Source: Massilia atriviolacea (GTDB taxonomy: Bacteria > Pseudomonadota > Gammaproteobacteria > Burkholderiales > Burkholderiaceae_D). Taken from it: a stretch of 64,000 bases of DNA. The stretch lies in NCBI RefSeq assembly GCF_003953935.1, contig NZ_RXLQ01000002.1, positions 372,001 through 436,000 on the forward strand, in the 5' to 3' direction. Each line of letters opens with the position of its first letter. Positions within the stretch are counted from its first letter, which is position 1. The notes under the pieces were generated by a model, which had not been told where the DNA came from, did not search any database, and was given only the letters and a program-made list of their open reading frames with translations. The translations under genes and the position numbers were made by a program. Below are positions 33,087-61,500 of the stretch, in pieces.

Positions 33087-33590
33087 ATGAACGATGACCG
33101 AGTCGATCCATGGTTGGTGCTGCGTACAAAAAGCCGTCACGAAAGCGTTGTCGAAAGCTTTTTGCAGCAGAAACGCATCACCTCCTATCTGCCGAAATGC
33201 AAGGTGGTACGGTCCGCTAAAGGCCGCAGCAAGGTGGTCGAGTTGCCGCTGTTTCCAGGCTATGTGTTTGTGCGGCCGACCGAGGCGCAATACGACAGCA
33301 TGCGCTATATCCGCGGTTCGTGCGGACTGGTACTGGCCGATAACAGGCCGGCCCGCATGCCGGAGAAGGACCTGGAATCGGTCAAGATCCTGGTCGACAG
33401 CGGCGTTTCGCTGATGGTCGACCCGGAATTGACCGCGGGCAAACGCGTGAGGATCGTCGCCGGCCCCCTGGCAGGCATGGAAGGCGAGCTGGTGTCGGTC
33501 AAATCGCAGGACCTGCTGGTCGTGAATATCGACATGCTCAATAGCAGCGTGCGTGTCGATATCGACCGCGATGCCATCGACGTGCTGTAA
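33087..33590 (+). CDS. Specialised NusG-family antiterminator (LoaP/RfaH/TaA-like)
   Basis: A 167-residue NusG paralogue. The N-terminal NGN domain begins with PWLVLRTKSRHESVVESFLQ and includes LPLFPGYVFVRP, the RNA-polymerase-binding face. The KOW domain follows near residue 115 (AGKRVRIVAGPLAGMEGELV). It is shorter and more divergent than housekeeping NusG. Its place as the first gene of an operon over 31 kb long matches LoaP of Bacillus difficidin/macrolactin loci and TaA of the Myxococcus myxovirescin locus. Such proteins let polymerase read through very long operons, usually after loading at a site in the leader. The 465-base gap to the PKS gene contains hairpins and repeats that could be that site. 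Family assignment is firm; the target is inferred. Confidence 0.92.
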   Translation: MNDDRVDPWLVLRTKSRHESVVESFLQQKRITSYLPKCKVVRSAKGRSKVVELPLFPGYVFVRPTEAQYDSMRYIRGSCGLVLADNRPARMPEKDLESVKILVDSGVSLMVDPELTAGKRVRIVAGPLAGMEGELVSVKSQDLLVVNIDMLNSSVRVDIDRDAIDVL

Positions 33591-34055: not shown

Positions 34056-37000
34056 ATGCTTAGCCAAGAAATGCTGCTCGAATACACCGAGTCCTACCTT
34101 AAATCCCTGGTCGCCGAGACGTCGGTGTCGCTGGGCACCAATTTCGATAGCGCCGCGCCGTTCGGCGAGCTCGGGATCGATTCCTTCCGCGTACTGAAGA
34201 TCATCAAGGCGCTCGAAGCGGATTTCGGCACGCTGCCGAAAACGCTGCTGTTCGAAAATTTCAACGTCGATGCGCTGGCGAACTACTTTGTCGACGAGCA
34301 CACCGATACGCTGCGCGACAAGTTCTCCAAAGGCCAGGCCAAACGTGCGGCATCGCCTGCAAAGGCCGCCGGCATGCCTGAAAAAGCGCGCAGTGGAAGC
34401 GCTCCCGGTTTCCCTTCGGCAACGCCAAATCCAAAGCCCAAGAAGTTCCTGCAGGCGCCGGTTCCGGTCCAGGCGTGGGCCCGTCCGGCAGCGCAGGCAA
34501 GCGCACCCGCGCCGGCGGCGCTGCCGGTGCGCGTCCTCGAAACCGATCTGCCCGCCTATCCGGCCCTGGCGGCCGTGGTCGCGGACTTGTTCGAGCGTTA
34601 CAAGAACGAAGGCTGCGTGTCGCGCGGCACCCGCAACATCGCTCCGAACCTGTTTATCGGCAGCGCGCGCAAGGGTTACTTCAATTACAGCCGCAGCAAT
34701 CGCATCATCCTCGTGTACGCCTTTACCGGCCCGGAAGACTACTTTGCCGAGCTCGCGGCCGAGATGCAGCGCTACTGCGTCGAGAAAAAATTCCAGCTCA
34801 ATATCTTCGGCGACGCACCCATTCCCGCGATCGACGGCGTGGCATTTTCGTCGACGCCGTTCGGCGCCCTGCAGCGCGTGCTCGACATCGGCAGTTTCAG
34901 CCTGGAAGGCGGGGCCATGCGGCGCCTGCGCTACCAGGTCGCCAAGTTCGACAAAGCCGGCGCCTGCCGCACCACGGAATACGCCTGCGGCACCGATCAC
35001 GCGGTCGACCGCGAGATCGCCGCCGTCATCGACCGCTGGTGCGCCGCCAAGACCATGGTCAACCCGCTGATCCACATCGTGCGCGAAGAAATCCTGGCCG
35101 GCACCTTGCATGCGCAACACCGCATCTTCCTGACCTACCTGGATGACAAGCTGCAAAACGTGATCCTGATTTCGGCCATGTGCGCCTCGCTCAACGGCTA
35201 CCTGATGGACCTCGAATTCTATGGCGACGACATGCCGCTCGGCGGCCTGGAATATGCCATCGCGCACATCATCGGCACGCTCAAGGCCGAGGGCTGCGCC
35301 ATGTTCAGCCTGGGCGGCACCTACGGCTGCCGGCTGGAGACCTCGCCGCACGCCGACCCGGCGGTGGACGCCATCCTCGACGACCTGCACAGGCAGGGCA
35401 TTTTCAGCGACGACGGCAACCTGCAGTTCAAGAACAAATTCCGCCCGGAGAACCGCACCATCTATCTGTGCCGGCCGGTCGGCAGCGGCAGCGGCGACAA
35501 CGTCATCGACCTGATCATGATGATCGCCGACCCGGCCAAGGCCCAGACCCCGGAAACCGACAACCGGAATGCCGACGCCGCCCAGGCGGGCAATGTCGCT
35601 GACGTCGTCCCCGCCGCTCCCACGGCCGCACCGGCTGCCGCGACCGTCAATCCAGCGCCTGTACCAAGGCCCGCGACACCGGTCGAGTCGACCGACTTCG
35701 CCGCCTGCGGCTACAACCCGCTCAATATGCCAGCCGGGCAGGTCGACTACGACCTCAAGACCGACTCCTGGGCGCAACTCGACCACGCCGGCTTCATCGG
35801 CAAACAGATGGCGCACCTGCACACGCAGTTGCAGCAGCCGGCCAATATCGACGACAGCCTGCGTGCGGTCTTCCCCTTCAAGTACTTCGTGCTGACCGAT
35901 TCGGGCCGCAGCGCGGACCACCTGTTCTGTAAAGCCTGGCCGAAGAAGGGCATCGTCGTCCAGAACCTGTTGTTTCCAACCTGCATCTATCACCAGATCG
36001 ACAAAGGCTACACGCCGCACGAGTTGCCGCACCCATCGGTGTTCGTCACCGATTCCGGCGACCCGCGCCAGTCCGAACTGGACTTGGACGCGCTGCACGC
36101 CTACGTCGCCGCCCACGCCGGCCGGATCGCCTACGTCTGCATCGAAGTGAGCGACAACGCGGCCGGCGGCCACCCGGTATCGCTCGCGCACCTGCGGCAG
36201 CTCAAGGACCTGCTCGCGCCGCATGCGATCGCCCTCGTGATCGACGGCACGCGCGTGCTCGAAAACGCCCAGTTCCTGATCGAACGCGACCCATCCTGCA
36301 AGGGCAGGGCGCTGTTCGACGTGGCCGCCGAGATCCTGGCGTATGCCGATGCCGTCATCGGCAGCCTGGCCAAGGACTTCAGCGTGAACAAGGGCGGCCT
36401 GATCGCCACCAACGATGAAACCCTGCTGCGCACGCTCCAGGACCTGATGCGGCGCGAAGGCGGCGGCCTCAACGTCATCGAGAAGAAGCTGGTCGCCTTG
36501 TCCCTGCAAAACCGCAGGCAGATCGAAGCGTCGGTGGTGCGCCGCATGCGCGCCGTCGAAACGATCTGGCAAGCGTTGGACAGCGCGCAGCTTCCCTTGG
36601 TTCGGCCGGCAGGCGCCCATTGCATATTGATCGATGTCAAACGGCTGCCGCAATTCGCCGGCTTCGCCCATCCGGTGCCATCCTTCCTGGCCTGGCTGTT
36701 CGCCAACACCGGCATCCGCGGTGGGGCGCACAGCACGGGCATGCAAACCCATGGCCCGCTCAGCGGACAGGTAAGGCTGGCGATTCCGGTCGGCCTGAAG
36801 AAAGAGCAGGCCGAGGACATCGCCGCCCGCCTGGTGCAACTGTTCCGCGACAACAGGAATATCCCCGAGCTCGCGCTGCCGGCCTCCAGCGCAAGCGCGT
36901 TCGGCGATGTGCACGAGCGCTACGAGCTGGTGCGCTATCACGGCGCCGTGGACGATGCGCAGGAACAAGTTGCCGACTCCGGCCCGGTGTTGCCGGCGCT

Positions 37001-40000
37001 GTCACTGCTGTCGAGGCCGGTGCAATCGGGCGCGCCCAAGGCGGCGCCGGCGGAAAGCCGGGTCGGCGATATCGCCATCGTCGGCATGGCCGGGCGCTAC
37101 CCCAAGGCGGCCAGCCTGGCCCAGTTCTGGGACAACCTCAAGGAGGGCGTCGACTGCGTCGGCGAACTGCCGCCCGAACGGCGCGCGCGGCGCCTGCAAA
37201 ATCCCTTCTCCACGGACTACCGGGGCGGCTTTGTCGACGATGTCGACAAATTCGATTCCCTGTTCTTTCATATTTCGCCGCGCGAAGCCGAGTTTCTCGA
37301 CCCACAGGAACGCCTGTTCCTCGAAGTGGCATGGGAAACCCTGGAAGACGCCGGTTACTACCCGGAAATCATGTCCAGCGAGGAAGGCGCGCGCCAGGTC
37401 GGCGTATTCGTCGGCGCCGTCTGGGCCATGTACCAGATGGCCGGGGTCGAGGAAAAAATTTGCGGCAACAACCTGAATCCGAATTCCTTCCTCTGGAGTA
37501 TCGCCAACCGCGTGTCGTACTGGATGAACCTGACCGGCCCGAGCCTGACGGTCGACACCGCCTGTTCGTCGAGCATGAGCGCGATCTACCTGGCGTGCGA
37601 GGCGATCCGCAATGGCGATTGCAGCAGCGCGATTGTCGGCGGCGTCAACCTGGACCTGCATCAGCACAAGTTCGACATCAACAACGCCGGCGGCGCGCTC
37701 TCGCCCGACGGCGTCTGCCGCAGCTTCGGCGCCGGCGCCAACGGCTATGTGGCGGGCGAGGGCGTCGGCGCCATCCTCATCAAGCCGCTGGCCCAGGCCA
37801 TTGCCGACCGTGACAATATTTACGGGGTAATCAAGAGCGCCGTCGTCAATCACGGCGGACGGACCAGCGGCTACACCGTGCCCAATCCCAAGGCCCAGGG
37901 CGAGCTGATCGCGGCAGCGCTGGCCAAGGCCAATGTCGATCCGCGCAGCATTGCCTACATCGAGGCGCACGGCACCGGGACGGAGCTGGGCGACCCGATC
38001 GAAATCGCCGGGCTGACGCGCGCCTTCGCCGGGCATGATGTAGGCCGGCAGAGTTGTCCGATCGGCTCGGTCAAGACCAATATCGGCCATCTGGAAGCGG
38101 CCGCCGGCGTCGTCAGCGTGAGCAAGGTGTTGCTGCAGATGAAACACCGCCTGCTGGTGCCGTCCCTGCATTCCGCCGAATTGAACGAACTGATCGACTT
38201 CAAGAATTCGCCGTTCTACGTCCAGCGCCGCCTGGAAGCGTGGAAGGAAAAGGACGTCGACGGCGTCAAGCAGGCGTTGCGCGCCGGACTGAGTTCCTTC
38301 GGCGCGGGCGGCGCCAACGCCCACATCGTGCTGGAAGCCTACACCGCGCCCGAGCGGGAAACCGCCGCCGTCGACGGCAGCCTGATCTTTCCTTTGTCGG
38401 CGCGCAACGACGCCCAGTTGCGCGAGATGGCGGCGCGCCTGCGCACCCATCTGCGGCGCGGGGACCGGCAGGCCAGCCTGGCCGATGTCGCCTTCACCCT
38501 GCAGAACGGGCGCAAGTCGTTCGAACATCGGGTGGCCGTGGTGGCCGCCAGCATGGACGAACTGATCGACAAGCTCGGCTTGTTCGTGGATGGGACCAAA
38601 GATGGCGACATCCTGTCCGGCCATGCAAAAAATGCGGATGGGGTCACCAAGCTGCTCAGCCGCGCCGAAAAAGAGCTGTTCGTCGCCTTGCTGTCGCAAG
38701 GCCGCGATCCGCACAAGCTGGCGCAGCTGTGGATCGATGGCTTGCTGGCCGATTGCAGCGGCTTGCCCGAGTCGGGCGGCAAGCGCACCTCCCTGCCGAC
38801 CTACCCGTTCGCCGACAAGCGTCACTGGATCGGCACCGGCAAGGCGGCGTCCGCCGCACCGGCAGCGCAGGTGCTGCCGAGCTTGCACCCGATGATCGAC
38901 AGCAACGAATCGACCTTCCAGCGCCAGTTGTTCAAAAAGACCTTCCATGCGCGCGAATTCTTCATCCGCGATCACGTCGTCTCGGGCGTGCCGACCTTGC
39001 CGGGCACCGCTTATCTGGACCTGGCGCGCATGGCCGGCGAGATCGCGGCGGGGCGCAAGGTGCGCAAGATCCGCAATGTCACCTGGGTCAGCCCGCTCGC
39101 GGTCGAGGGAGCGCTGCCGACCGAAGCCTTTGTCGAACTGAAACCGGGCGCCGATGCGGTGCAGTTCGAGGTCTTCGGCGAAGCGGCGGGCAAGAAGCGC
39201 CTGTATGCGCAAGGCAAGCTGGTGTACGCGAGCGACGATCACGGCACGTCCTTGCCGGAGCGTATTGACATCGATGCCATTCGCGCCCGCTGCGGCCGGC
39301 CGATTATGGCAAAAGAGGCTTATCCCCTGTTCGACGCCATGGGCATGCACTACGGGCCCAGTTTCCAGGTGCTGCAGGAAGTGGTGAAAAACGACGATGA
39401 AGTGCTGGGCCTGCTGACGATTCCCGAGGCGCGCAGCGGCGACTTCGACGATTTCGTGCTGCATCCCTGCGTGCTCGATGCGGCGATGCAAGCCGGGGTC
39501 ATGGCCCAGTTCGGCGCGGCGGCGGGCGAGATGAAGGTGCCGTACTCGATCGGCGAGGTCGAGCTGCTGTTTCCGCTCACGCGCACCTGCTACAGCTACC
39601 TGACGAAGGTAAAGAGCGAGCGCGGCGCGGGAGCGAACGTCGCGCGCGAAAACGTCACCATCGTCGACGAGACCGGCAAGGTGCTGGCGCGCATCCGCGA
39701 CTCGGTCGGCGTGTCCCTGAGCAGCGTGCACGACAAGCCGGCACCGCTTGCCCAGGGGTACGAGCAGCTGTACTACGCGCACCGCTGGCAGGCGGCGCCG
39801 CTGGCGCCTGTCGCCACCGACGTGCAGTCGCTGCTGCTGTTCGACACCGACGATTGCCTGCGCAATGCCTGCCTCGCCCGCAACATCGAGACCGTGCTGG
39901 TCTTGCCGCGCGAACGCTTCGAGGACCTGGGCAATGGCAGCTACGGCGTCAATCCGCGCGAGCGCAACGATGTCGCACGCTTGTTCGAGGCGCTGGAGCG

Positions 40001-43000
40001 CGCCAGCTTCTCCGCCGACAAGATCTGCTACGCCTGGCCGGAATCGGCCGAGCCGGACGCGGCGCAAGCGCTCGGTGCGGCGCTCGATCGCGGGGTCTAC
40101 GGTTTCCTGGCGGCCTGCCAGGGCGTGATCGAACAGAAACCCAAGGGCAGGGTGCAGCTGCTGTACCTGCACGCCGGCGCCAGCGCCCACAACGAGGCAG
40201 TCAACGGTTTCGCCCGCAGCCTGCGTCTCGAAAATCCCAAGATCGATTGCAAGGTGCTGGACATCGGCGCCCAGGGCGCGGACGCGGAGCAAACGCTGCC
40301 GGTCATCCTTGCCGAGCTGCACGCGGGCGCCCAGGACGACATGACCGTGCGCTACGACGGCGGCCTGAGGTCGATCCGCGTTCTCGGCAAACTCGACGTG
40401 GCGGCGCCGTCCGGCGCGTCCGCCATCGCCCTCAAGCAGAACGGGGTGTACCTGATTACCGGCGGCGTGGGGGGGCTGGGCCTGATCTTCGCGCAGTTCC
40501 TGGCCGCCGAATGCAAGGCGAGGCTGGTGCTGACCGGCCGCTCGACCCTGTCCGACGAGCAGGAAGCGCGGCTCGACACCTTGCGCAGCCTCGGCGCGCA
40601 GGTCATGTACGTGGCGGCCGACGTGTCCGACGCCGCCCAGGCCGAGCATCTCATTGCCGACACCAGGGCCCGTTTCGGCGCGCTGAACGGCATCATCCAC
40701 GGCGCCGGCGTGCTGCGCGACTCCTTGCTGCGCAAAAAGACCCGGGACGAGATGGCAGCCGTGTTCGCGCCGAAGGTGTTCGGCACCTTCCATCTGGACA
40801 ACGCGACCCGCAACGACGATCTCGACTTTGTTGTGCTGTTTTCCTCGCTGGCGGCGGTGGGCGGCAACGCCGGCCAATGCGATTACGCCTTCGCCAACCA
40901 CTATATGGACAGTGTCGCGGCCCGCCGCGAGCAACTGCGCGCCAGCGGCGAGCGGCGCGGCCGCACGGTCAGCATCAACTGGTCGCTGTGGGCCGACGGC
41001 GGCATGAAACTCGATGCCCAGACCGAAGAATTCTTCAAGAAAAACCTCGGCATCGTGCCGCTGAGGACGCAACTCGGCCTGGACGCCTTCATGAACGCGC
41101 TGTCCATGGCCCAGCCGCAACTTGCGGTGCTGGAAGGGGTGCGCGACAAGATCGAACTGGCATGGGGCATCACCAAGAAAGCCGCCCCTGCGCCGGTGGC
41201 GGCGAGCGTGCAGCCTGTGCAGGGCGACCTGGCCGCGCTGGTTACGGGCGAGCTGTCCGCCACGGTCATGGATTTGCTCAAGATCAGTGCCGACGACCTG
41301 TCGCTGGACGCCATCCTGCTCGACCTGGGTTTCGACTCGATCGGCCTGGCAAGCTTTGCCAATGCGATCAACGAGCGTTACCTGCTCGATATCAATCCGG
41401 TCATGTTCTTCGAATATCCGTCAATTCGCGCGATCGCCGAGGTACTTGCAGGCGATTACAAGGATGCGGTCGCCAAAGCGCATGGCAAGGCGACGCTCGC
41501 CAGCGTTGCCGCAGCGGCGCCGGCCGCAGCGGTGCCCCTCGGCGCCATCAACAAGGGCTGGGAAGCGCCGGCCGCGCCGCCGGCGGCGCCGGCTGGGCTG
41601 TCGCGCGCGCGCCGCTTTGCCGAGCAGCCGATTGCCATCGTCGGCATCGGCGGCGTGATGCCGCAGTCGGCCAACATGGAAGCGTTCTGGGACAACTTGA
41701 AGAACGGCCGCAACATGGTCACCGATATCCCGCGCGACCGCTGGATCTGGGAAGACGTCGACGGCAATCCCTTCAAGGAAACGAACAAATCGAACTCCAA
41801 ATGGGGCGGCTTCATGAAGGAGGTCGATAAGTTCGACCCGCTGTTCTTCGGCATCACCCCGCGCGAGGCGGAGATGATGGACCCGCAGCAACGTATCTTC
41901 ATCGAAACCGTGTGGAGCGCCATCGAGGATGCCGGGCACAAGGTGTCGGACCTGTCCGGTACCCGGACCGGGCTGTTCGTGGGCGCCTCGGCCAAGGACT
42001 ATATCGACGTATTGGCCGAGAACAAGTCGCCGCTGGACGGCTACTCTGCTTCCGGCAATTCGCACTCGATCCTGGCCAACCGCGTGTCTTTCCTGTTCAA
42101 CCTGCGCGGGCCGAGCGCGCCGCTCGATACCGCGTGCTCCAGCTCGCTGATTGCCTTGCACCGCGCCATCGAATCGATCCACACGGGCAGCAGCGACATG
42201 GCCATCGTGGGCGGCGTGCAAGTGATGCTGACCCCGATCGGGCATATTTCGCTCAGCTCGGCCGGCATGCTGAGCGTGGACGGCAAATGCAAGACCTTCA
42301 GCAAGGATGCCAACGGGTACGTGCGCGGCGAAGGGTCGGGCGCGATTTTCATCAAGCCGCTGGCGCAGGCCGAGCTGGACGGCAACCCGATCTACGCCGT
42401 CATCAAGTCCACTGCCGAGAACCACGGCGGCCGCGTCACCATGCTGACCGCCCCCAATCCGAAGGCGCAGGCGGAATTGCTGGTGGAAGCGTACGAGAAG
42501 GCGCAGATCGATCCGTCCACGGTCGGCTACATCGAGTGTCACGGCACCGGCACCAGCCTGGGCGATCCGATCGAGATCCAGGCCCTGAAAAAAGCCTTTG
42601 CGGACCTGTACAAGAAGCACGGCAAGGAGGCCCCGCGCGCGCCATCGTGCGGGCTCAGTTCGGTCAAGACCAACATCGGCCACCTCGAGCCTGCGGCCGG
42701 CATCGCCAGCCTGCTCAAAGTGCTGCTGTCGATCAGGCACCGCCAGATTCCGGCCTTGCTGCACTTCGAGCAGCTCAATCCCTACATCGACCTGTCCGGC
42801 AGCCCTTTCTATATCGTCGACAAGACGACCGCGTGGGAAGCGCCCGTCGGGCCGGACGGTGCGCCGCTGCCGCGCCGGGCGGGCGTGAGCTCGTTCGGCT
42901 GGGGCGGCGCCAATGCCCACGTCGTGCTGGAAGAATACATTGCGCCATCGCGCGCGCCGGGGCAGGCAGGCGCGCAACTGGTGCTGCTGTCGGCCAAGAG

Positions 43001-44810
43001 CGAAGAACGCCTGAAGGCCAGCGCCGCCTCCTTGCTGGCGCATATCGGCAAGCACGAGGCCGACCTGGGCGACCTGGCGTACACCCTGCAAGTCGGGCGC
43101 GACGCGATGGATCACCGGCTGGGCATGGTGGTCAATTCGCTGGCGGAACTGGTACAGCGGCTGCGCGCCTTCGGCGCCGGCGCAACTGCCGGCCTGCATC
43201 GCGGCCGCGTGCAGCGCAGCAAGCCGGAAGCGGCGCGCGGCGATCTCGACAGCGTGGCCGACGCGTGGGTGAGGGGCGCCGACGTGGACTGGCACGCACT
43301 CCACCCGCAAGGCCAGCGCCGCCGCATCAGCTTGCCGTCGTATCCCTTCGCCCGCGAGCGCTACTGGATTGCCGCCGCCGGCAAAACGGCGCCGAAACCG
43401 GCGCCGACCGTGTCCGTGCTGCATTCGCCGGACGTGGGCAGCCTGCTGGCGCGTCCGGTGTGGACCAGCACGGCCGGCGCGGTGGTCGGCAAGCAGGTCG
43501 GCGTGCAGCTGCACCGGGTGCTGGTGTGCGGCCTGCCGCAGCTCGATATCGGCCAGCTCGGCGCCGATGCGCGGCGCCTGCCGGCGCAGGAGGCTGGCGG
43601 CATCGCCGGGCACTTCGGCGCGACGGCCTCGGCCTGCTTCGAGCAACTGCAAGCGATCCTCAAGACCAAGCCCAAAGGCAAGGTGCTGTTCCAGGTTCTG
43701 GTCGGCAATCAGGGCCAGGACGCGCTGCTGGCGGGCCTGGCCGGCATGATGAAGAGCGCGCGCATGGAAAGCCCGAGCCTGGTCGGCCAGGTCATCCTGA
43801 CCGACGCGGCGGACCCGCGCACCGCCGCCGGCCAGCTGCTGGTGTGCCGCGCGCAGCCGGACGAATCGCTGTTCAGGTTCGAAGGCAGCACCCAGAGCGT
43901 GTTGCGCTGGCAGGCGCAGGTCAACCGGGGCCTTGCACCGCAGGCGTTCCGCGAAGGCGGCGTGTACCTGATCGCGGGCGGTCTGGGCGGCCTGGGACTG
44001 CTGTTCGCCAGGGACATCCTGGCCCATGCCCCGAGCGCGACTGTCGTGCTGACCGGGCGCGCGGCGCTCACCGCCGAGCAGCGCGCCATGCTGGCCGACC
44101 TGCCCGGCGCGGTGGCGTACCGCCAGCTGGACCTCGATCGCCAGGAGAGCGTGACGGCGCTTGTCGCCGAGGTGGTGGCCACGTACGGCGCCCTGAATGG
44201 CGTCATCCACAGCGCGGGGACGACGCGCGACAGCCTGATCGTCAACAAGACGCCGGCGCAGTTCGCGCAGGTGCTGGCGCCCAAGGTCGGCGGCACCGTG
44301 CATCTGGACCAGGCAAGCGCCGCCATCGCGCTCGACTTCATGGTGCTGTTCTCGTCGGTCACGGCGGTGATGGGCAACGTCGGGCAGGCCGATTACGCGG
44401 CCGCGAACGGCTTCATGGACCAATTCGCCGCTTACCGCAACACCTTGGTCGATCAGCAACAGCGGCACGGCCGCACCCTGTCGATCAACTGGCCGCTGTG
44501 GGAGGAGGGCGGCATGCAGGTCGACGCGCGCAGCCGCGCCATGCTGCTCAAGATGTCGGGCATGCTCCCGATGCGCACCGATACCGGCATGCAAGCCTTC
44601 CAGCGCAGCCTGGCGCTGCCGGTCGGGCAAACGCTGGTCATGGAAGGCCATGTCGAGCGCCTGACAACGCTGCTGTTCCCGGATCAGGCGCTCGAGCCCG
44701 CAGCCAGGCGCCTGCCTGCGGGCGGCAGCGTGACCACAATCGAGACCGACAGGCTGCGCGAACTGGTCCTGGCCGATCTGCGCCGCTTTCAAACTTCAAA
44801 CAAGGGGTAA
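34056..44810 (+). CDS. Trans-AT type PKS: ACP-LPGsynthase_C-tryptophanase-like-KS-DH-KR-ACP-KS-KR
   Basis: A 3584-residue synthase starting at ATG 34056 after CGGAG. ACP with GIDSF (Ser near 42). Residues 165-485 match the C-terminal domain of phosphatidylglycerol lysyltransferases (DUF2156): FSLEGGAMRRLRY, VIDRWC and the closing KAEGCAMFSLG. Residues 550-936 match beta-eliminating lyases such as tryptophanase: EVSDNAAGGHPVSLAHLR, the PLP lysine Lys773 in GSLAKDFSVNKGG, and QVRLAIP near 906. KS1 keeps Cys1170 and both His. The DH has His1640 in HVVSGVPTLP and Asp1808. KR1, ACP2 (GFDSI near 2427), KS2 (Cys near 2694, active pattern) and KR2 follow. No AT is present, so malonyl units must come from a separate enzyme. 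The final KR lacks its ACP; an ACP opens the next protein. The role of the transferase/lyase pair is unknown. Confidence 0.92.
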   Translation: MLSQEMLLEYTESYLKSLVAETSVSLGTNFDSAAPFGELGIDSFRVLKIIKALEADFGTLPKTLLFENFNVDALANYFVDEHTDTLRDKFSKGQAKRAASPAKAAGMPEKARSGSAPGFPSATPNPKPKKFLQAPVPVQAWARPAAQASAPAPAALPVRVLETDLPAYPALAAVVADLFERYKNEGCVSRGTRNIAPNLFIGSARKGYFNYSRSNRIILVYAFTGPEDYFAELAAEMQRYCVEKKFQLNIFGDAPIPAIDGVAFSSTPFGALQRVLDIGSFSLEGGAMRRLRYQVAKFDKAGACRTTEYACGTDHAVDREIAAVIDRWCAAKTMVNPLIHIVREEILAGTLHAQHRIFLTYLDDKLQNVILISAMCASLNGYLMDLEFYGDDMPLGGLEYAIAHIIGTLKAEGCAMFSLGGTYGCRLETSPHADPAVDAILDDLHRQGIFSDDGNLQFKNKFRPENRTIYLCRPVGSGSGDNVIDLIMMIADPAKAQTPETDNRNADAAQAGNVADVVPAAPTAAPAAATVNPAPVPRPATPVESTDFAACGYNPLNMPAGQVDYDLKTDSWAQLDHAGFIGKQMAHLHTQLQQPANIDDSLRAVFPFKYFVLTDSGRSADHLFCKAWPKKGIVVQNLLFPTCIYHQIDKGYTPHELPHPSVFVTDSGDPRQSELDLDALHAYVAAHAGRIAYVCIEVSDNAAGGHPVSLAHLRQLKDLLAPHAIALVIDGTRVLENAQFLIERDPSCKGRALFDVAAEILAYADAVIGSLAKDFSVNKGGLIATNDETLLRTLQDLMRREGGGLNVIEKKLVALSLQNRRQIEASVVRRMRAVETIWQALDSAQLPLVRPAGAHCILIDVKRLPQFAGFAHPVPSFLAWLFANTGIRGGAHSTGMQTHGPLSGQVRLAIPVGLKKEQAEDIAARLVQLFRDNRNIPELALPASSASAFGDVHERYELVRYHGAVDDAQEQVADSGPVLPALSLLSRPVQSGAPKAAPAESRVGDIAIVGMAGRYPKAASLAQFWDNLKEGVDCVGELPPERRARRLQNPFSTDYRGGFVDDVDKFDSLFFHISPREAEFLDPQERLFLEVAWETLEDAGYYPEIMSSEEGARQVGVFVGAVWAMYQMAGVEEKICGNNLNPNSFLWSIANRVSYWMNLTGPSLTVDTACSSSMSAIYLACEAIRNGDCSSAIVGGVNLDLHQHKFDINNAGGALSPDGVCRSFGAGANGYVAGEGVGAILIKPLAQAIADRDNIYGVIKSAVVNHGGRTSGYTVPNPKAQGELIAAALAKANVDPRSIAYIEAHGTGTELGDPIEIAGLTRAFAGHDVGRQSCPIGSVKTNIGHLEAAAGVVSVSKVLLQMKHRLLVPSLHSAELNELIDFKNSPFYVQRRLEAWKEKDVDGVKQALRAGLSSFGAGGANAHIVLEAYTAPERETAAVDGSLIFPLSARNDAQLREMAARLRTHLRRGDRQASLADVAFTLQNGRKSFEHRVAVVAASMDELIDKLGLFVDGTKDGDILSGHAKNADGVTKLLSRAEKELFVALLSQGRDPHKLAQLWIDGLLADCSGLPESGGKRTSLPTYPFADKRHWIGTGKAASAAPAAQVLPSLHPMIDSNESTFQRQLFKKTFHAREFFIRDHVVSGVPTLPGTAYLDLARMAGEIAAGRKVRKIRNVTWVSPLAVEGALPTEAFVELKPGADAVQFEVFGEAAGKKRLYAQGKLVYASDDHGTSLPERIDIDAIRARCGRPIMAKEAYPLFDAMGMHYGPSFQVLQEVVKNDDEVLGLLTIPEARSGDFDDFVLHPCVLDAAMQAGVMAQFGAAAGEMKVPYSIGEVELLFPLTRTCYSYLTKVKSERGAGANVARENVTIVDETGKVLARIRDSVGVSLSSVHDKPAPLAQGYEQLYYAHRWQAAPLAPVATDVQSLLLFDTDDCLRNACLARNIETVLVLPRERFEDLGNGSYGVNPRERNDVARLFEALERASFSADKICYAWPESAEPDAAQALGAALDRGVYGFLAACQGVIEQKPKGRVQLLYLHAGASAHNEAVNGFARSLRLENPKIDCKVLDIGAQGADAEQTLPVILAELHAGAQDDMTVRYDGGLRSIRVLGKLDVAAPSGASAIALKQNGVYLITGGVGGLGLIFAQFLAAECKARLVLTGRSTLSDEQEARLDTLRSLGAQVMYVAADVSDAAQAEHLIADTRARFGALNGIIHGAGVLRDSLLRKKTRDEMAAVFAPKVFGTFHLDNATRNDDLDFVVLFSSLAAVGGNAGQCDYAFANHYMDSVAARREQLRASGERRGRTVSINWSLWADGGMKLDAQTEEFFKKNLGIVPLRTQLGLDAFMNALSMAQPQLAVLEGVRDKIELAWGITKKAAPAPVAASVQPVQGDLAALVTGELSATVMDLLKISADDLSLDAILLDLGFDSIGLASFANAINERYLLDINPVMFFEYPSIRAIAEVLAGDYKDAVAKAHGKATLASVAAAAPAAAVPLGAINKGWEAPAAPPAAPAGLSRARRFAEQPIAIVGIGGVMPQSANMEAFWDNLKNGRNMVTDIPRDRWIWEDVDGNPFKETNKSNSKWGGFMKEVDKFDPLFFGITPREAEMMDPQQRIFIETVWSAIEDAGHKVSDLSGTRTGLFVGASAKDYIDVLAENKSPLDGYSASGNSHSILANRVSFLFNLRGPSAPLDTACSSSLIALHRAIESIHTGSSDMAIVGGVQVMLTPIGHISLSSAGMLSVDGKCKTFSKDANGYVRGEGSGAIFIKPLAQAELDGNPIYAVIKSTAENHGGRVTMLTAPNPKAQAELLVEAYEKAQIDPSTVGYIECHGTGTSLGDPIEIQALKKAFADLYKKHGKEAPRAPSCGLSSVKTNIGHLEPAAGIASLLKVLLSIRHRQIPALLHFEQLNPYIDLSGSPFYIVDKTTAWEAPVGPDGAPLPRRAGVSSFGWGGANAHVVLEEYIAPSRAPGQAGAQLVLLSAKSEERLKASAASLLAHIGKHEADLGDLAYTLQVGRDAMDHRLGMVVNSLAELVQRLRAFGAGATAGLHRGRVQRSKPEAARGDLDSVADAWVRGADVDWHALHPQGQRRRISLPSYPFARERYWIAAAGKTAPKPAPTVSVLHSPDVGSLLARPVWTSTAGAVVGKQVGVQLHRVLVCGLPQLDIGQLGADARRLPAQEAGGIAGHFGATASACFEQLQAILKTKPKGKVLFQVLVGNQGQDALLAGLAGMMKSARMESPSLVGQVILTDAADPRTAAGQLLVCRAQPDESLFRFEGSTQSVLRWQAQVNRGLAPQAFREGGVYLIAGGLGGLGLLFARDILAHAPSATVVLTGRAALTAEQRAMLADLPGAVAYRQLDLDRQESVTALVAEVVATYGALNGVIHSAGTTRDSLIVNKTPAQFAQVLAPKVGGTVHLDQASAAIALDFMVLFSSVTAVMGNVGQADYAAANGFMDQFAAYRNTLVDQQQRHGRTLSINWPLWEEGGMQVDARSRAMLLKMSGMLPMRTDTGMQAFQRSLALPVGQTLVMEGHVERLTTLLFPDQALEPAARRLPAGGSVTTIETDRLRELVLADLRRFQTSNKG

Positions 44811-44814: not shown

Positions 44815-47800
44815 GTGTCCAACGCTAATGTCTTGAATCGTTTGATCAGCATCATCGAGGCGACGTTGAAGTTGCCAGCGGAGAAGATCGATATCGATGT
44901 GCATCTGGAAACGATGGGCATCAATTCCCTGATCATGATGGAGTTGATCGAGAACATCGACGCCGAATTCGGCATCGCGCTCACGCCCGCCCTGTTCGTG
45001 GACGTGGAAACGCTGTCGGACCTGGCGGGCCTGGTGGACCGGCAGCTGCCGCGCGCCGATGCGGCGCCGGACATGCTCGGCTTCATCAACCAGACCTACG
45101 CGGTCGACCTGTCGCACATGGGGCTGGCCTCGGTCGACGCCATGGCCGACGCGCTGCTGGCCGATCACACCAGCGACCTGCTGCGCCACTACGGCATCGG
45201 CCTGGCGGACGCGCCCGCCGCGCCGGCCCGCTCGCAGGATGTGGCGATCGTCGGCATCAGTTGCCGCCTGCCGGACGCGCCCGACGCGCGCGCCTTCTGG
45301 GACAACCTGCTGGGCGAAAAGAACAGCGCCCGGGAAATTCCCGCGTCGCGCTGGAAGTGGGAGCAGCATCATTCGGACACCCCACAGCCCGGCAAGACGG
45401 TGTCGAAATGGGGTGCACTGGTCGACGACGTCGATTGCTTCGATCCGGCGTTTTTCAATATCCCCGTGCAGGAAGCGGCCATGATGGACCCGCAGCAGCG
45501 CCTGTTGTTGCAGGAAAGCTACCGCGCCGTGGAAGATGCGGGGATCGACATGGGCGCCCTGGCCGGATCGAAGACCGGCGTCTTCGTCGGCTATCAATAC
45601 TCGGAATACGAGCAGCTGCTGCGCAACAGCGGCAATCGGGAGGCGCAAGCAGGCCCGCTGTTCAGCTCGTCCAGTCCCTCGTACTACCTGTCCAACCGTG
45701 TCTCGTTCGCCTTCGACCTGCGCGGGCCGAGCGAGTCGTTCAATGTCAACTGCGCCTCGTCGGCGGTGGCGATCAACCGCGCCTACTTTTCGCTGGTCAA
45801 CGGCGAGTCGGACGCGGCGCTCGCCGGCGGCGTGTCGCTGAACCTGTTCGAGGGCGACTACATCGCATCGTCGCAGTACGGCCTGCTGTCGCCGGACGGC
45901 AGCAGCGGCGTGTTCGATAACGAGGCCAAGGGATTTACGCGCGGCGAAGGCGTGGCGGCGATCGTGCTCAAGCGCCTGGACGACGCCGAGCGCGACGGCA
46001 ACCGCATCTACGCCGTCATCAAGGCCTGCCACCAGAATTTCCGGGGCGCGGCGCGCAGCCAGTCGGAGATGAAGCACGAATCGATCACCGACGTGCTCGG
46101 CGCCTGCTACCGGCAGGCCGCGATCGATCCCGCCACCGTGCGCTACGTCGAGGTCGACGGCTACGCCACCAGATGGGCCGATTCCTTCGAGTACGAAGGG
46201 GTGAAGAATGCCTTCAAAGGCGGCCGCCCCGGCGAAAAACGCTGCGCCCTCGGCAGCGTGAAAGGCAACATCGGCAATGTGGAGGCCGCCAGCGGGGTGA
46301 GCAATGTGATCAAGCTGGCGCTGTCGCTGCATCACAAGGTGTTCCCGGCCACGATTTCCTGCAAGACTGTCAGCAGCTTCATCGATATCGACAACCCCGC
46401 GCATCCTCTGTATATCGCCAGCAAAGCCATCCCATTTGCCGACATCCGCGAAGCTGGCGTACCGCTGCGGGCGGGTGTCAATTCCTTCGCCGACAGCGGC
46501 AGCAATGTGCATATTTTGCTGGAAGAATACGTTCCCGCCGCTGCGCCCGCGCTCTCGCATGCCGACGGTAAACAGCTGTTCGTGCTGTCCGCAAAGACAC
46601 CCGGCCGTCTTGCCGCCTATGTGGACGAGCTCATCGCCTGCCTGACGCGTGCCCGGGACGTCGACTTCGGCAACATCGTCTATACCGCGCAGAGGGGGCG
46701 CGCGGCCATGGACGAGCGCCTGGCCATCGTCGCCGCCAACCGCGCCGAACTGCTGGAAAAGCTGGCCCTGGTGCGCCAGGCCGGCCAGCGCGCGCCGCTG
46801 GGACTGGACGCGAAGGAGATCTTCCGGGGCAGCGCCGCCCAGGGCGACAAGCAGCCGGTCGCCGCCCTGATCACGGCCGAGATGGCCCTGGCGCCCCTGA
46901 CGCAAGGCATCCGGACCCGCCAATGGAAACCGGTCGCGCAGCTGTGGGTGAACGGCGTGACGATGCCGTGGGAGGCGGTGTGGCAGGGTGCATCCATGCG
47001 CCCGGTGTCCCTGCCCGGCTATCCCTTTGCCCGCGAGCGCTACTGGATCGACAGCGTGGCCGCCCCCGTGGTCGATCTGCCTGTGCCCGCCGCCGTGGCG
47101 CATCGCGACCATGCGGCCGACGCCGCTCCGATGGACCGCAGCCAGAAGATTGCGCTGTTCCTCAGGCAGGAAGTGGCGCGCCAGCTCGGCCAACGGGTCG
47201 AGCAGATCGCGACCGGCAAGCCGCTGGTCGAGCTGGGCATGAGTTCGGTCGGCATCGCCGAGCTGATTACCCGCACCGATGCCTTGCTGGCCTGCCACCT
47301 GTCGCCTGGCGAGGTGTTGCGGCACCCCGACATCGCGCAATTGTCGGCCTACCTGGCGCACAGCTACCCGGAGACCGCGCGCCCGACGCCCGCGCGCGCA
47401 GCGGCCGAGATCCTGGTTGCGGTCCAGGCCAAGGGCGAGCGCGAGCCGATCTTCGCCATGCCAGGCGCTGGCGGGAATGCGCTGTCCTTGCAGCAACTGA
47501 GCCACGCGCTGGGCAAGGAGCAACCGTTCTACTGCCTGGAACCGGTCGGCCTGGACGGGCGCCTGGCGCCCATGACCAGCGTGCAAGAGATTGCCGAACT
47601 CAATATCGAGCGCCTCAAGACGGTGCAGGCGCGCGGTCCCTACCGCCTGCTGGGTTACTCGAACGGCGGCGTGGTCGCTTTCGAGATGGCGCGGCAACTG
47701 CTGGCGCGCAAGGACAAGGTGGCTTCCCTGATCCTGCTCGACAGCCTGTGCCCGACCGCGCGCGGCGGGCAAGCCATCGACGACATGGTGGTGGCGGTGT

Positions 47801-48249
47801 TCAAGAACTTCGCCAGCTCGCTCGGCGGCCATGTCGAGCTCGACGTCCAGACCCTGAAACGCATCCCCGAAGGCGAGCGCAGCGACTACCTGTACGACAG
47901 CCTGGTCATGCTCGGCCACGCCTTGCCGCGCGAGCAATTCGTTGCCACGTTCAACGTCGCCACGGCGAGCGAGCACGCCTGCCGCGCCTACCAGCCGCTG
48001 CCGCTCACGCAAAAGGTGGATGTGGTGCTGCTCAAGGCCATGGACGGCTTCAAGGGCGTGCCGAACGACTACGGCTGGGGCGAATTCGCCTCGGTGCCGG
48101 TGCGCATCTTTCCCTTGAAGGGCGATCACTTCTCGCTGATCGAGAAAGCGTCCGTGCAGGAGCTCGCACGAAAAATCCATGCCCTCGGCGGCAAGCCGGG
48201 CAAGGCGGGCAAGTCCGCAGCCGTGGACGAGCTGGTCGTCAGCATCTGA
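44815..48249 (+). CDS. PKS: ACP-KS0-ACP-TE (release protein)
   Basis: An 1144-residue protein starting at GTG 44815, four bases after the previous stop. ACP1 carries Ser38 in GINSLIMM and would complete the module split from the preceding KR. The KS-like domain keeps a cysteine (Cys313 in NVNCASSA), but the first catalytic His is Asp448 (VEVDGYAT in place of EAHGTGT) and the second is Asn488 (NIGNVEAASG in place of NIGH). It should therefore bind or pass on the chain but not extend it. ACP2 has Ser811 in GMSSVGI. The thioesterase has Ser949 in GYSNGG, an Asp in LILLDSL and a His in GDHFSLIE, so it looks able to release the product. The closing residues form a basic tail. Terminal placement is inferred from the TE. 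Confidence 0.9.
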   Translation: MSNANVLNRLISIIEATLKLPAEKIDIDVHLETMGINSLIMMELIENIDAEFGIALTPALFVDVETLSDLAGLVDRQLPRADAAPDMLGFINQTYAVDLSHMGLASVDAMADALLADHTSDLLRHYGIGLADAPAAPARSQDVAIVGISCRLPDAPDARAFWDNLLGEKNSAREIPASRWKWEQHHSDTPQPGKTVSKWGALVDDVDCFDPAFFNIPVQEAAMMDPQQRLLLQESYRAVEDAGIDMGALAGSKTGVFVGYQYSEYEQLLRNSGNREAQAGPLFSSSSPSYYLSNRVSFAFDLRGPSESFNVNCASSAVAINRAYFSLVNGESDAALAGGVSLNLFEGDYIASSQYGLLSPDGSSGVFDNEAKGFTRGEGVAAIVLKRLDDAERDGNRIYAVIKACHQNFRGAARSQSEMKHESITDVLGACYRQAAIDPATVRYVEVDGYATRWADSFEYEGVKNAFKGGRPGEKRCALGSVKGNIGNVEAASGVSNVIKLALSLHHKVFPATISCKTVSSFIDIDNPAHPLYIASKAIPFADIREAGVPLRAGVNSFADSGSNVHILLEEYVPAAAPALSHADGKQLFVLSAKTPGRLAAYVDELIACLTRARDVDFGNIVYTAQRGRAAMDERLAIVAANRAELLEKLALVRQAGQRAPLGLDAKEIFRGSAAQGDKQPVAALITAEMALAPLTQGIRTRQWKPVAQLWVNGVTMPWEAVWQGASMRPVSLPGYPFARERYWIDSVAAPVVDLPVPAAVAHRDHAADAAPMDRSQKIALFLRQEVARQLGQRVEQIATGKPLVELGMSSVGIAELITRTDALLACHLSPGEVLRHPDIAQLSAYLAHSYPETARPTPARAAAEILVAVQAKGEREPIFAMPGAGGNALSLQQLSHALGKEQPFYCLEPVGLDGRLAPMTSVQEIAELNIERLKTVQARGPYRLLGYSNGGVVAFEMARQLLARKDKVASLILLDSLCPTARGGQAIDDMVVAVFKNFASSLGGHVELDVQTLKRIPEGERSDYLYDSLVMLGHALPREQFVATFNVATASEHACRAYQPLPLTQKVDVVLLKAMDGFKGVPNDYGWGEFASVPVRIFPLKGDHFSLIEKASVQELARKIHALGGKPGKAGKSAAVDELVVSI

Positions 48250-48285
48250 CTGTAAGCGCCTGATTCAACCCTTTTGGAGAAATCG

Positions 48286-50862: not shown

Positions 50863-50917
50863 CCCGGATCGACCGAACGACCAAGCGACTCAACGACCAA
50901 CGAATCAAGAGGACTGT

Positions 50918-51814
50918 ATGACATTCATCAAGACCAACCTGCCGATCATGTTGCTGGCCGCCATCGCTCCGCTGGCGCCCGTCATGGCGGCATCGACCGA
51001 ATCGGCCGACGCCATCATGGCCAAGGTCGATCACGCGACCCGCACCGCCTATTCGACCCAGCTGGCCAGCGTGAAAATCACGACCTGCAAATACATGCTG
51101 GCCGGCGGCAATGTGAAGTGCTCGGAAAAGCCGCGCGTGGTGGTGGCGGAGAACATCAAGAAAGGCGCCGTCGTCGACGGCAAATACAACGATAAATCGC
51201 TGCTGATCGTGCGCGAGCCGGTCAGCGACAAAGGCACCAGCCTGCTGGTCTACGAATACGGCGAACGCAATCGCGACAACGACAACTGGCTGTATTTGCC
51301 GGCGCTGGGCAAGGTCAATCGCGTCATTGCCAGCGACGACGATGCCGGCAGCGTGTTCGGCTCCGAATTCTCGGTCGAAACCACCGAGAATCCCGAGGCC
51401 CGCAAGATCTACGAATACACCTACAGGATCCTGGAAGAGACCAGTTACCAGAACCGTCCGGCCTGGGTCATCGAAATGATGCCGACCGAGGAAAAGGGCC
51501 GCAAGACCAGCTACGGCAAGGTGATTTCGTGGATCGACAAGGAAACCCACCTGCCGCTGAAAGAAGACCTTTACCGCAACGGCAAGATCCACAAGCAGCG
51601 CACCCAGACCGACATCAAGAATATCGACGGCGTGAACGTGATGCTCAAGGTCGTGATCAACAACCGCTCCTCGTCGCGCGTGAGCCAGATGGATTACATG
51701 GCGATGCGCCACAACACCGAGGTGCCGGACGAGTTCCTGAGCCAGCGCGGCCTGACCGACTTCGCCTTCCGCGAGCGCAGCCTGGCCGAGTACCGCGCCC
51801 GCCTGGCTAAATAG
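50918..51814 (+). CDS. LolA-like outer-membrane lipoprotein-sorting family protein
   Basis: A 298-residue periplasmic protein. The signal peptide ends near PVMAAS (residue 26). The remainder fits the LolA-like fold family often annotated as outer membrane lipoprotein-sorting protein: WLYLPALGKVNRV, SEFSVETTENPEA, GKVISWIDKETHLPLKEDLY and a C-terminal MDYMAMR...VPDEFLSQRGL segment. Such proteins commonly sit next to MMPL transporters and are thought to carry lipids across the periplasm in a half-barrel. The start at 50918 follows AAGAGGA. It is 55 bases after the transporter and 11 before the barrel gene. The substrate is unknown; the polyketide is the likely cargo. Confidence 0.83.
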   Translation: MTFIKTNLPIMLLAAIAPLAPVMAASTESADAIMAKVDHATRTAYSTQLASVKITTCKYMLAGGNVKCSEKPRVVVAENIKKGAVVDGKYNDKSLLIVREPVSDKGTSLLVYEYGERNRDNDNWLYLPALGKVNRVIASDDDAGSVFGSEFSVETTENPEARKIYEYTYRILEETSYQNRPAWVIEMMPTEEKGRKTSYGKVISWIDKETHLPLKEDLYRNGKIHKQRTQTDIKNIDGVNVMLKVVINNRSSSRVSQMDYMAMRHNTEVPDEFLSQRGLTDFAFRERSLAEYRARLAK

Positions 51815-51825
51815 GCTGTCACCGG

Positions 51826-53151: not shown

Positions 53152-53178
53152 ACGGCGCCATTCTCTCCAGGGAAAGAC

Positions 53179-55316: not shown

Positions 55317-55335
55317 ACCAACACCGGGAGAAAAC

Positions 55336-58579: not shown

Positions 58580-61500
58580 ATGAATATCAAGGACCAACGT
58601 GTTGCCGTTATCGGGATGTCGGGGAAATTCCCCGGTGCCAATAGTGTTGCCGAGTTCTGGGAGAACATCTGCGCGAAGAAGGACAGCATTCGCGCGCTAT
58701 CGGACGAAGAACTGCGAAGCGCCGGCGTGCCCGAGCGCGATATCGCCGACAGCGCCTACGTGAAAGCGTCGGCCCTGCTGGACGACGTGGCGATGTTCGA
58801 CCCCGGCTTCTTCAGGATCTCGCCGCTGGAGGCGGAGCTGATGGATCCGCAGATCCGCCTGCTGCTGCAATGCGCGTGGGAAACGCTGGAAGATGCCGGC
58901 CACGCCCGCAAGGAAGCCCAGAACATCGGCGTGTTTGCCGGCGCGGGCGGGGTCACGACCAGCTATTTCGCCAATTTCGTCAATCTCGACCAGCGCTTCA
59001 AGAAGATCACGGCGGGTGCTACGCACCTGGGCAACGACAAGGATTTCCTTGCGACCTATATTTCGTACAAGCTGAACCTGACCGGTCCGAGCATGACCGT
59101 GCAGACCGCGTGCTCGACCTCGCTGGTGGCCCTGCATCAGGCGTGCCAGAGCGTCTTGCATGGCGAATGCGCCATGGCGCTTGCCGGCGGCGTCACCGTG
59201 CGCGTGCCGCACGTGCAGGGCTATCACTATCAGGAAGGCTACATTTTTTCGCGCTCCGGGCAGATCAGGGCCTTCGACGAGGCGGCCGACGGCGTGGTGT
59301 TCGGCAGCGGGCTGGGCTTGGTGCTGGTCAAGCGCCTGGCCGACGCGATTGCCGACGGCGACCATATTTACGCCGTCATCAAGGGCTCGGCCATCATGAA
59401 CGACGGCAAGGGCAAGATGAGCTATGCCGCCAGCAGCGCCAAGGGGCAGATCGCCTGCGTGCGCGCGGCGCTGGCCAGGGCCGATGTGGAGGCGGGGTCG
59501 ATCGGCTTCGTCGAGTCGCACGGCACCGGCACGCTCATGGGCGACCCGGAAGAGGTCAAGGCCCTGTCCGCCGCCTTCAAGGAGCAGACCGACAAGAAGG
59601 CGTTTTGCGCGCTGGGCGCGGTCAAGGCCAACATCGGCCACCTGGAGGCGGCGGCCGGCATTGCCGGCTTCATCAAGGCGGTGCTCGCGGTCAGGCACGG
59701 CCTGATTCCGCCGACCGCGCACTACGCCACACCGAATCCCCGTATCAAATTCGACAATACGCCGTTTTTCATCAATGGCGGCCTGCAGCAATGGGACGAT
59801 GGCGGCAAGCCACGGCGCGCGGCGGTCAACAGCCTGGGCGTCGGCGGGACCAATGCGTTTGTGATTATCGAGAATTATGTCGCGCCAAAACGGTCCGGCA
59901 AGAAAGTTGCCAGCGGGCCGGTCGTGGTGCCGCTGTCGGCAAAATCGTCCGCCAGCCTGCATGGCCAGGTGCAGAAGCTGGCCGCTTTCCTCGCCAGCGA
60001 ACCCGTGCTCGATCTTGCCGACCTGGCCTACACCCTGCAGACCGGACGCGAGGCCATGGGCATGCGCGCTGCCTTCGTGGCCGGGTCGCTGGCCGAACTG
60101 CGGACGCGGCTCGCCAATTTCCTCGACGGCAATCCGGACAGCCTGCCCGAAGGCGAAACGGCCGCAGCGTGGGTCGGCGGCGCCGACATCGACTGGCATG
60201 CGCTCAATGGGAGCGCCAGGCGCAAGCGCGTCAGCCTGCCGACCTACGCGTTCGCCAGACAGCGCTGTTGGATCGATCCTGTTGCTGCCGCTCCCGCCGC
60301 GGCGATGCTGCATCCACTGCTGCACGTCAACAAGTCCGATCTGAACGAGCAAAAGTACAGCTCGACCTTCAACGGCGAAGAATTCTTCCTGAAGGACCAT
60401 CTGGTGCGCACCAAACCGGGCGCATCGGCGCTGCAGAAGGTGCTGCCGGCGGTCGCCTGCCTTGAAATGGCGCGCGCCGCCATCGAGCAGGCCGCGCCCG
60501 TCCACGCGGACGCCAGCGTGCTGGAACTGCGCGACATCGTCTGGCTGCGGCCCATCCCGGTCGACGCCGACACGCAGGTCAACATCGCCATCGTGGCGGA
60601 CCAGCGCATCGGCTTCGAGATCTACGCATCGGACGACCAGATTCACTGCCAGGGCTGGTGCCAGTTCAGCACCGGTGTCACGGCCGAACGCTTCGATCCC
60701 GCGCAGTTGACCGAATCGATGGGGCAGGGCCACTGGTCCGGGCCCGCGCTGTACGCCGCGTTCGAGACAATGGGACTGGCCTACGGGCCGGCGCACCGGC
60801 CGATCGCCGGCATCGAGCGCGGCGACCGGGCCTTGCTCGCCCGTCTGAACCTGCCGGCCAGCGTGCAGGCCGGCGGCGCGGCCTATGTGCTGCATCCGAG
60901 CCTGATGGACGGCGCCTTGCAGGCGGCCACGGTGCTGATGTTCGATCCGGCCCGTCCGCCACGCGCGCCGATCGTGCCGTTCGCGATCGACAGCGTGCAG
61001 CTGCTGGCCCCATGCAGCGCCGAGATGCTGGTCTGGGCACGCCATGCGGACGGCGACAAGGCGGCCAGCTTCGATATCGACATGCTCGACGTTGACGGCA
61101 ATCTGTGCGTGCGCATCCGTGGCTTTGCGCCGCGCCCGCTGGGCCGCGAAGTACCCGGCAGCCTGCTGGCCACCCGCGAATGGCAGCGCAACGACGCGGC
61201 GGCCGGCCAGGCGGCGCACGCCGAGCAGCATGTGATGCTGTGCGGGCTGCCGCAGGTCGACGCCGACAGGATCGCGCGCGACTGCCTGGTGCGGCCGCTC
61301 GATTCCGGCGAGGACGCCGCAACGCGCTACGCCGACATGGCGCTGGCCTGCTTCGACAAGCTCCAGTCGCTCGTCAACAGCAAGCCGCAAGGAAAAACCC
61401 TGTTGCAGCTGGTGCTGCCGAACACGGAAGAAAATACCCTGTACGCCGGCCTGTCCGGCATGTTCAAGACCGCCACCCTGGAAAACCCGCAGGTGGCCGG

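Follow-up and report, generated by a model that had tools for sequence, protein, structure and literature searches.

A DUF-SH didomain at the start of a Massilia atriviolacea polyketide synthase is probably the second half of a split, mid-line module

Introduction

What does a polyketide synthase do with an aminoacyltransferase-like domain and a tryptophanase-like lyase set between an ACP and a KS? The question is raised by PKS1, encoded in a 64,000-nucleotide stretch of Massilia atriviolacea DNA (hereafter the window). An original prediction, made from the sequence, likened the pair to the DUF-SH didomain of leinamycin-family synthases. It proposed that the pair may load an amino acid, perhaps cysteine, on the ACP-bound chain and cleave it to leave SH or NH2, or may make a starter from an amino acid. 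Here we compare PKS1 with known DUF-SH synthases and with related clusters, and weigh what the didomain may do in the assembly line.

Results

PKS1 starts with an ACP, a DUF2156 domain and a PLP lyase

PKS1 reads as one uninterrupted frame, 3584 codons long (34056-44810, + strand). Profile searches of its N-terminus find a PF09924 domain and an adjoining PF01212 lyase, with an ACP before them and a KS (residues 1004-1430) after them. The observation of an ACP-aminoacyltransferase-like-lyase-KS start is confirmed, including the predicted position of both domains between an ACP and a KS. The ACP (ACP1) matches PP-binding over residues 30-77 (E 6.4e-7, excised piece). It carries Ile at position six after Ser43 and is without the Trp flag. 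Features of PKS1 are as follows.

34056..44810, + strand: PKS1, ACP-DUF-SH-KS-DH-KR-ACP-KS-KR, C-terminus without an ACP
34065..34298 (approximate bounds), + strand: ACP1, phosphopantetheine Ser43 (GIDSF)
34533..35534, + strand: DUF domain (DUF2156/PF09924, LPG_synthase_C-like), residues 160-493, FKNKF at 458-462
35697..36878, + strand: SH domain, fold-type-I PLP lyase, nearest solved relative 9cen
36372..36374, + strand: codon of Lys773, Schiff-base lysine (SLAKDF)
36774..36776, + strand: codon of Arg907 (RLAIP), carboxylate-binding arginine, role by homology
37065..38345, + strand: KS after DUF-SH, residues 1004-1430, which would receive the sulfur-bearing chain
38871..39725, + strand: DH of the first extension after DUF-SH (HxxxGxxxxP and HPxxxD present)
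40206..41015, + strand: KR of the first extension after DUF-SH
41241..41465, + strand: ACP of the first extension after DUF-SH
41631..42938, + strand: KS of the second extension after DUF-SH
43743..44525, + strand: KR of the second extension after DUF-SH

The profile check suggested with the original prediction matched the two regions to LPG_synthase_C and to beta-eliminating lyases far beyond chance. LPG_synthase_C aligns with residues 224-473 (E 3.4e-14 in the whole protein, 6.8e-16 in the excised piece), in agreement with the domain predicted at 165-485; the conserved block, about 160-493, is slightly wider. The lyase, predicted to be tryptophanase-like at 550-936, matches PF01212 (E 7.5e-25 in the whole protein, 3.3e-26 excised) and the NCBIfam tryptophanase model PRK13238 over residues 548-941 (E 1.6e-45, 155.7 bits, below the model cut-off of 285). 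Together with the fold matches, these results rule out an ordinary linker or another fold in this region. At E 0.001 the host genome holds one PF09924 match, the DUF of PKS1, and its one lyase match is the PKS1 lyase itself.

The lyase is closest to a thiocysteine lyase domain

The best PDB sequence match of the lyase is 9cen (E 7.2e-60, 206.7 bits), whose title names the thiocysteine lyase domain from guangnanmycin biosynthesis; the best tyrosine phenol-lyase (TPL) scores E 3.8e-41 (145.0 bits). Fold ranking also puts 9cen first (E 3.8e-29) and TPL next (7.3e-27). By sequence and by fold, the lyase is closer to 9cen than to TPL. TPL and tryptophanase have the fold and the PLP-binding residues in common with SH, but score below 9cen against it.

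The PLP lysine Lys773 and the RLAIP arginine Arg907 are present as predicted. With Asp730 and Arg733 they are identical in 13/13 aligned DUF-SH rows (nine of PKS1's class and four leinamycin-type, two of these four nearly identical). The PLP lysine, the PLP-contacting Asp and Arg and the carboxylate Arg of a DUF-SH lyase are therefore all conserved, the four roles being ones that we take from TPL. PLP beta-elimination by such a lyase requires a substrate with a free amine and a free carboxylate. His589 of PKS1 stands at the position of TPL Tyr71 (counted on the alignment), which over the 13 rows is occupied by His (6), Arg (5), Ser (1) and Tyr (1). A survey of PKS and NRPS PLP domains published in 2013 reports that embedded PKS lyases lack Arg381 and have another residue in place of the catalytic Tyr (numbered Tyr53 there and equated with Tyr71) (PMC3870968).

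The DUF is related to aminoacyl-tRNA-dependent transferases

Both AlphaFold models, made with six sequences each, are of low quality (pLDDT 57.9 and 57.6); the DUF model has pLDDT 57.9 and pTM 0.48. For this weak model the best 17 fold matches are all DUF2156, A-PGS, L-PGS or MprF structures, headed by PDB 5vrv (named DUF2156 and lysylphosphatidylglycerol synthase domain). FemX comes after these, streptothricin peptide synthases appear further down, and TM-scores are about 0.35, in keeping with the weak model. Profile and fold, the latter from a low-confidence model, both relate the DUF to the aminoacyl-tRNA-dependent transferases of LPG_synthase_C. The DUF has profile and fold family in common with LPG synthase C-terminal domains (A-PGS, L-PGS, MprF), but its sequence match to them is weak (best PDB chain E 2.8e-4) and it is fused to an ACP and a lyase. 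Its FKNKF motif is invariant in 13/13 aligned rows. Compared with five other loci in distant hosts, the DUF is 62-73% identical and the lyase 53-59% (taken from the best segments of the matches). By sequence identity, the DUF is the more conserved half of the didomain.

PKS1 belongs to a DUF-SH class outside the leinamycin family

The comparison with leinamycin DUF-SH was right. What is called DUF in that didomain is a DUF2156 domain, DUF2156 being the older name of PF09924 (LPG_synthase_C). In PKS1 a Beta_elim_lyase-type PLP domain comes right after this domain; as judged by sequence, it carries the DUF-SH didomain of leinamycin-type synthases. LnmJ, GnmT and WsmR agree with PKS1 in the two domains and their order, in the ACP directly before the DUF, and in the catalytic residues. 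Among 80 matching plasmid records, the match extends over 80% or more of the DUF-SH query in four, three from Streptomyces and one from Kitasatospora, and PKS1's DUF-SH aligns end to end with these four didomains. Identity to the four leinamycin-type relatives is 42-48% for the DUF and 39-41% for SH. LnmK-family, ACP and HMGS genes lie just downstream of the didomain in 3/3 annotated plasmid records, the fourth being unannotated.

The original statement that no synthase with this pair had been described does not stand. The 2013 survey tabulates CP-DUF2156-PLP3-KS (PMC3870968), and in Meng et al. 2021 a network of 109 DUF-SH clusters includes three non-leinamycin families (PMC8479088). In the former, LnmJ ends CP-CP-DUF2156-PLP3-ABHy1, whereas Kordia algicida A9ECY5 (CP-DUF2156-PLP3-KS-KR-CP-KS) and Lysobacter sp. 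ATCC 53042 F8TUA6 (the same string plus a further KR) have the same starting domain string as PKS1 (PMC3870968). The latter reports GnmT-SH, LnmJ-SH and WsmR-SH, of guangnanmycin, leinamycin and weishanmycin, to be thiocysteine lyases: the chain is left with -SSH, and the thiocysteine adduct is favoured 50- to 106-fold. The role of the DUF is left open there (PMC8479088). An earlier proposal has the DUF join thiocysteine to an unsaturated acyl-ACP, according to the available part of Phillips et al. 2024 (PMC7618002). There, the annotated non-leinamycin DUF-SH modules have one ACP and no TE, as in PKS1, and the leinamycin terminal module is KS-ACP-ACP-DUF-SH-TE, with unsaturation via beta-branching (PMC7618002). 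PKS1's placement of DUF-SH is therefore already tabulated, and its chemistry is undescribed within the open-licence literature searched.

PKS1 does not have the leinamycin-type terminal module KS-ACP-ACP-DUF-SH-TE. Its ACP-DUF-SH is N-terminal, with one ACP at the subunit start, a KS downstream and a KS-DH in the presumed partner subunit. In a tree of 14 DUF-SH stretches, a 100/100 branch splits nine N-terminal rows from five near-protein-end rows. For the plasmid rows, the presence of a TE is taken from the published type, a TE profile (built on the TE of PKS2) having reported none there. Searches for LnmK and LnmL at 1e-5 found nothing in the cluster stretches that were fetched. Each of seven clusters has one HMGS, 43-45% identical to the LnmM-type protein of L051.

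The didomain is sparsely distributed

Searches at E 0.001 among 60 relatives gave five matches. The whole didomain is present in G010, G012 and the host itself, and the two others match by the lyase part only, in ordinary lyase-sized frames. At E 1e-60 the DUF-SH query finds 3/17 genomes of the genus, 2/369 of the class sample (the host and G203) and 1/296 of the Fulvivirga phylum sample, this one being the centre genome itself. Short peptide patterns, a method that misses distant relatives, found five loci in the genome_contigs collection. The 16S of the host is about 91% identical to Burkholderia records and 92% to Cupriavidus records, and we therefore place the host outside both genera. The Fulvivirga locus (L011) is cut off by a contig end.

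The G203 locus (contig C32, about 72358-94544, L058-L060) has a leinamycin-type end module, in which ACPs-DUF-SH precedes an alpha/beta-hydrolase stretch recognised by eye. Beside it lie genes homologous to LnmK, LnmL and LnmM (40%, 48% and 57% identity). As its sequence reads, this is a leinamycin-like cluster outside actinomycetes, in the same class as the host. That it holds a DUF without SH, as a DUF-only match might imply, is ruled out, for SH and the hydrolase stretch follow in the DNA. A Lysobacterales MAG has a second DUF-SH locus (G060b, L033-L034, G060:C32) with ACP, DUF and SH in different frames. It was kept out of the module claims, since the split frames could be an assembly error.

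A presumed partner subunit ends in KS-DH without an ACP

The cluster continues past the window to contig position 472747, and the PKS genes are followed by those for HMGS, ECH, two ATs and a KS-like protein. A profile search found no AT domain inside PKS1-5, so the line is of the trans-AT type. The other subunits that matter here are listed below.

44815..48249, + strand: PKS2, ACP-KS0 (DGYAT replacing HGTGT)-ACP-TE, presumably releases the chain
58580..64000, + strand: start of PKS3, first PKS in the proposed order, continuing to contig 445570
contig 459653-472747, outside the window: PKS5, C-terminal KS-DH without an ACP

A PKS that ends KS-KR-ACP-KS-DH without an ACP is encoded in 7/7 clusters whose sequence takes in the partner gene: G000 (the host), G010, G012, G060 (L007), G061 (L008), G062 (L009) and G063 (L010). 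The Fulvivirga locus, on a 16-kb contig, and G060b are outside this count. The last KS of the partner has EGHGTGT and an intact C-H-H in all seven. Its DH has HPxxxD in 7/7 and HxxxG in 6/7, the pattern not being found in G063. Because the partner regularly ends in this way, ACP1-DUF-SH most likely completes, as the domain strings suggest, a split KS-DH//ACP-DUF-SH module in mid-line.

Subunit ends lead to the same placement. PKS3 begins with KS and ends KS-DH, PKS4 begins KR-ACP and ends with KS, PKS5 begins DH-KR-ACP and ends KS-DH, PKS1 begins with ACP and ends KS-KR, and PKS2 begins with ACP and ends with TE. If each subunit is used once, the assumption on which the deduced order stands, PKS3-4-5-1-2 is the sole order that completes every split module. 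Enumeration covered five clusters, with one completing order each in G000, G010 and G012 and two each in G060 and G062; in G061 and G063 other subunits also end KS-DH. In every completing order of the five, ACP1 comes after a subunit that ends KS-DH and never takes the first place.

In a KS tree (96 rows, G010 omitted as a near copy, quick method, SH-aLRT, some other rows carrying a long-branch warning), the KSs before DUF-SH (six rows) form one group with SH-aLRT 100 and those after DUF-SH (eight rows) form another with support 100. Leinamycin KS8 lies outside both, indicating that the didomain occurs in two module types. Leinamycin KS8 is not supported as the ancestor of the partner's KS, since the two fall in different parts of this quick, SH-aLRT-only tree.

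None of the seven clusters has a KR in the KS-DH//ACP1 module. As the KS keeps C-H-H, a beta-keto chain is expected there, which the DH cannot dehydrate without an outside reductase. KS0-type dehydrating bimodules follow the pattern KS-KR-ACP, KS0-DH-ACP; such an arrangement would account for the missing KR but is unsupported here, the KS keeping C-H-H in 7/7. HMGS beta-branching on ACP1 is not favoured either, in view of the absent Trp flag, the single HMGS per cluster and the presence of Trp-flag ACPs in PKS3/PKS4. The Trp-flag argument is weak, since leinamycin ACPs are also without the flag in the available text of PMC7618002.

Proposed mechanism and alternatives

We consider it probable that the didomain acts in mid-line, in a split module in which a DH makes an enoyl chain, the DUF aids addition of sulfur, and SH eliminates to leave -SSH or -SH. 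The C-terminal KS-DH of PKS5 would be the first half of this module and ACP1-DUF-SH the second. The PKS5 DH would render the ACP1-bound chain alpha,beta-unsaturated; we favour the DH over a beta-branching cassette as source of the electrophile because ACP1 is without the Trp flag and LnmK and LnmL have no match. The DUF, an aminoacyl-tRNA transferase relative presumably recruited to a different task, may then help to attach L-thiocysteine (or cysteine) through its sulfur to the beta carbon. SH would form an aldimine with the amine of the adduct, the carboxylate being held by Arg907, and beta-elimination would release pyruvate and ammonia and leave the chain with -SSH (or -SH), -SSH being the more plausible. 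The next KS would elongate the sulfur-bearing chain, and PKS2 would release it after two extensions. The missing KR is an unexplained gap that counts against this explanation. It might be supplied in trans or by a neighbouring module, and the FabG-like gene at 57518-58258, with homologues in 3/6 other clusters (G010, G060, G062), is a candidate. No thiocysteine-supply gene was recognised among the scanned genes.

As PKS1 is the first PKS gene of the row, directly behind an antiterminator gene, plain colinearity would favour a loading role. ACP1-DUF-SH would then be a loading module in which the DUF moves a tRNA-borne amino acid to ACP1 and the lyase makes a starter acid, as PF09924 membership and the fold matches to A-PGS, L-PGS, MprF, FemX and Sbb17 would allow. 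We regard this as quite improbable. An amino acid linked by its carboxyl group would give Arg907 nothing to bind, and the chemistry of the neighbouring lyase would speak against tRNA-dependent amino acid transfer by the DUF. Loading of an amino acid on the chain, the first route in the original prediction, becomes less likely if it goes through the carboxylate, since Arg907, named as carboxylate-binding in that prediction, is kept and the lyase should require a free carboxylate and amine. The other route, a starter made from an amino acid, loses ground because ACP1, and PKS1 with it, is never first in the completing orders of five clusters. Further, PKS3 has a first KS of its own in a separate deep group (a KS-tree join with a long-branch warning), and the TE-bearing PKS2 comes directly after PKS1. 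The idea that the didomain is decayed and merely structural we hold to be most improbable: the frame is open, catalytic residues are kept in all 13 rows, and the DUF is closely similar in distant hosts.

With sulfur addition in mid-line as the preferred reading, the identity of the SH substrate allows for another outcome. SH might be a plain cysteine lyase leaving -SH, or might act on the adduct of some other beta-substituted amino acid, which we think rather unlikely, though much less so than a loading role. The SH domains assayed within the open-licence literature are those of LNM, GNM and WSM only, the 100/100 branch splits PKS1's class from the leinamycin class, and LnmJ-SH has weak cysteine lyase activity in the available text of PMC8479088. 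The marked preference of all three assayed domains for the thiocysteine adduct argues the other way, as do the active-site lysine, aspartate and arginines common to PKS1 and the leinamycin-type rows.

The open-licence literature searched demonstrates no reaction for the DUF and names no product of the non-leinamycin DUF-SH families. What is new here is the module context, namely the KS-DH end of the presumed partner in 7/7 clusters and the probable mid-line placement of DUF-SH. If a DH, and not a beta-branching cassette, does feed the didomain, this would suggest that the DUF needs only an unsaturated acyl-ACP; its role could then be tested with simple enoyl-ACPs, and the didomain would be a candidate for transfer between modules. 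The analysis also extends DUF-SH to further members from a Burkholderiales genus, whose whole clusters can be compared.

Later modules and possible product

In the host cluster and in G010, DUF-SH is followed by KS-DH-KR-ACP, KS-KR//ACP, and then a non-elongating KS, ACP and TE. Active-site motifs are present in the DH and KRs that follow DUF-SH in PKS1. The KS of PKS2 looks non-elongating, having DGYAT in place of HGTGT, plus KGNIGN; similar motifs occur in G010, G060, G061 and G062. In the host, and in G010 by its like domain string, the chain end would be 3-hydroxy-4-ene-7-thio. Such an end would resemble the thiol arm of a histone deacetylase inhibitor, which is that compound's zinc-binding arm. 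An independent arrival at such an arm, perhaps delivered as a persulfide, is a speculative and improbable reading; the match requires a beta-sulfur at ACP1 and a supplied KR. In G060, G061 and G062, profile searches of the final module in the protein that carries DUF-SH detected a DH (weak in G060) but no KR, so their product end would differ.

Neighbouring genes

Directly upstream of PKS1 lies a gene for a UpxY/LoaP-type transcription antiterminator (33087-33590); the cluster stretches fetched from G010, G060, G062 and G063 have homologues of it. Between PKS2 and PKS3 (48274-58261) are genes for an MMPL transporter, a LolA-like protein, a DUF1302 protein, a GMC oxidoreductase, an AMP ligase, the FabG-like reductase and a protein without family match that looks lipid-binding by eye. 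Several have homologues in related clusters. By their predicted families, these genes suggest outer-membrane export of a lipid-like product. A separate NRPS/PKS cluster occupies 1-32588, with a TauD-type domain and genes for a formyltransferase, a penicillin amidase-like protein, PepSY_TM and a TonB receptor; from this gene content it looks like a siderophore cluster.
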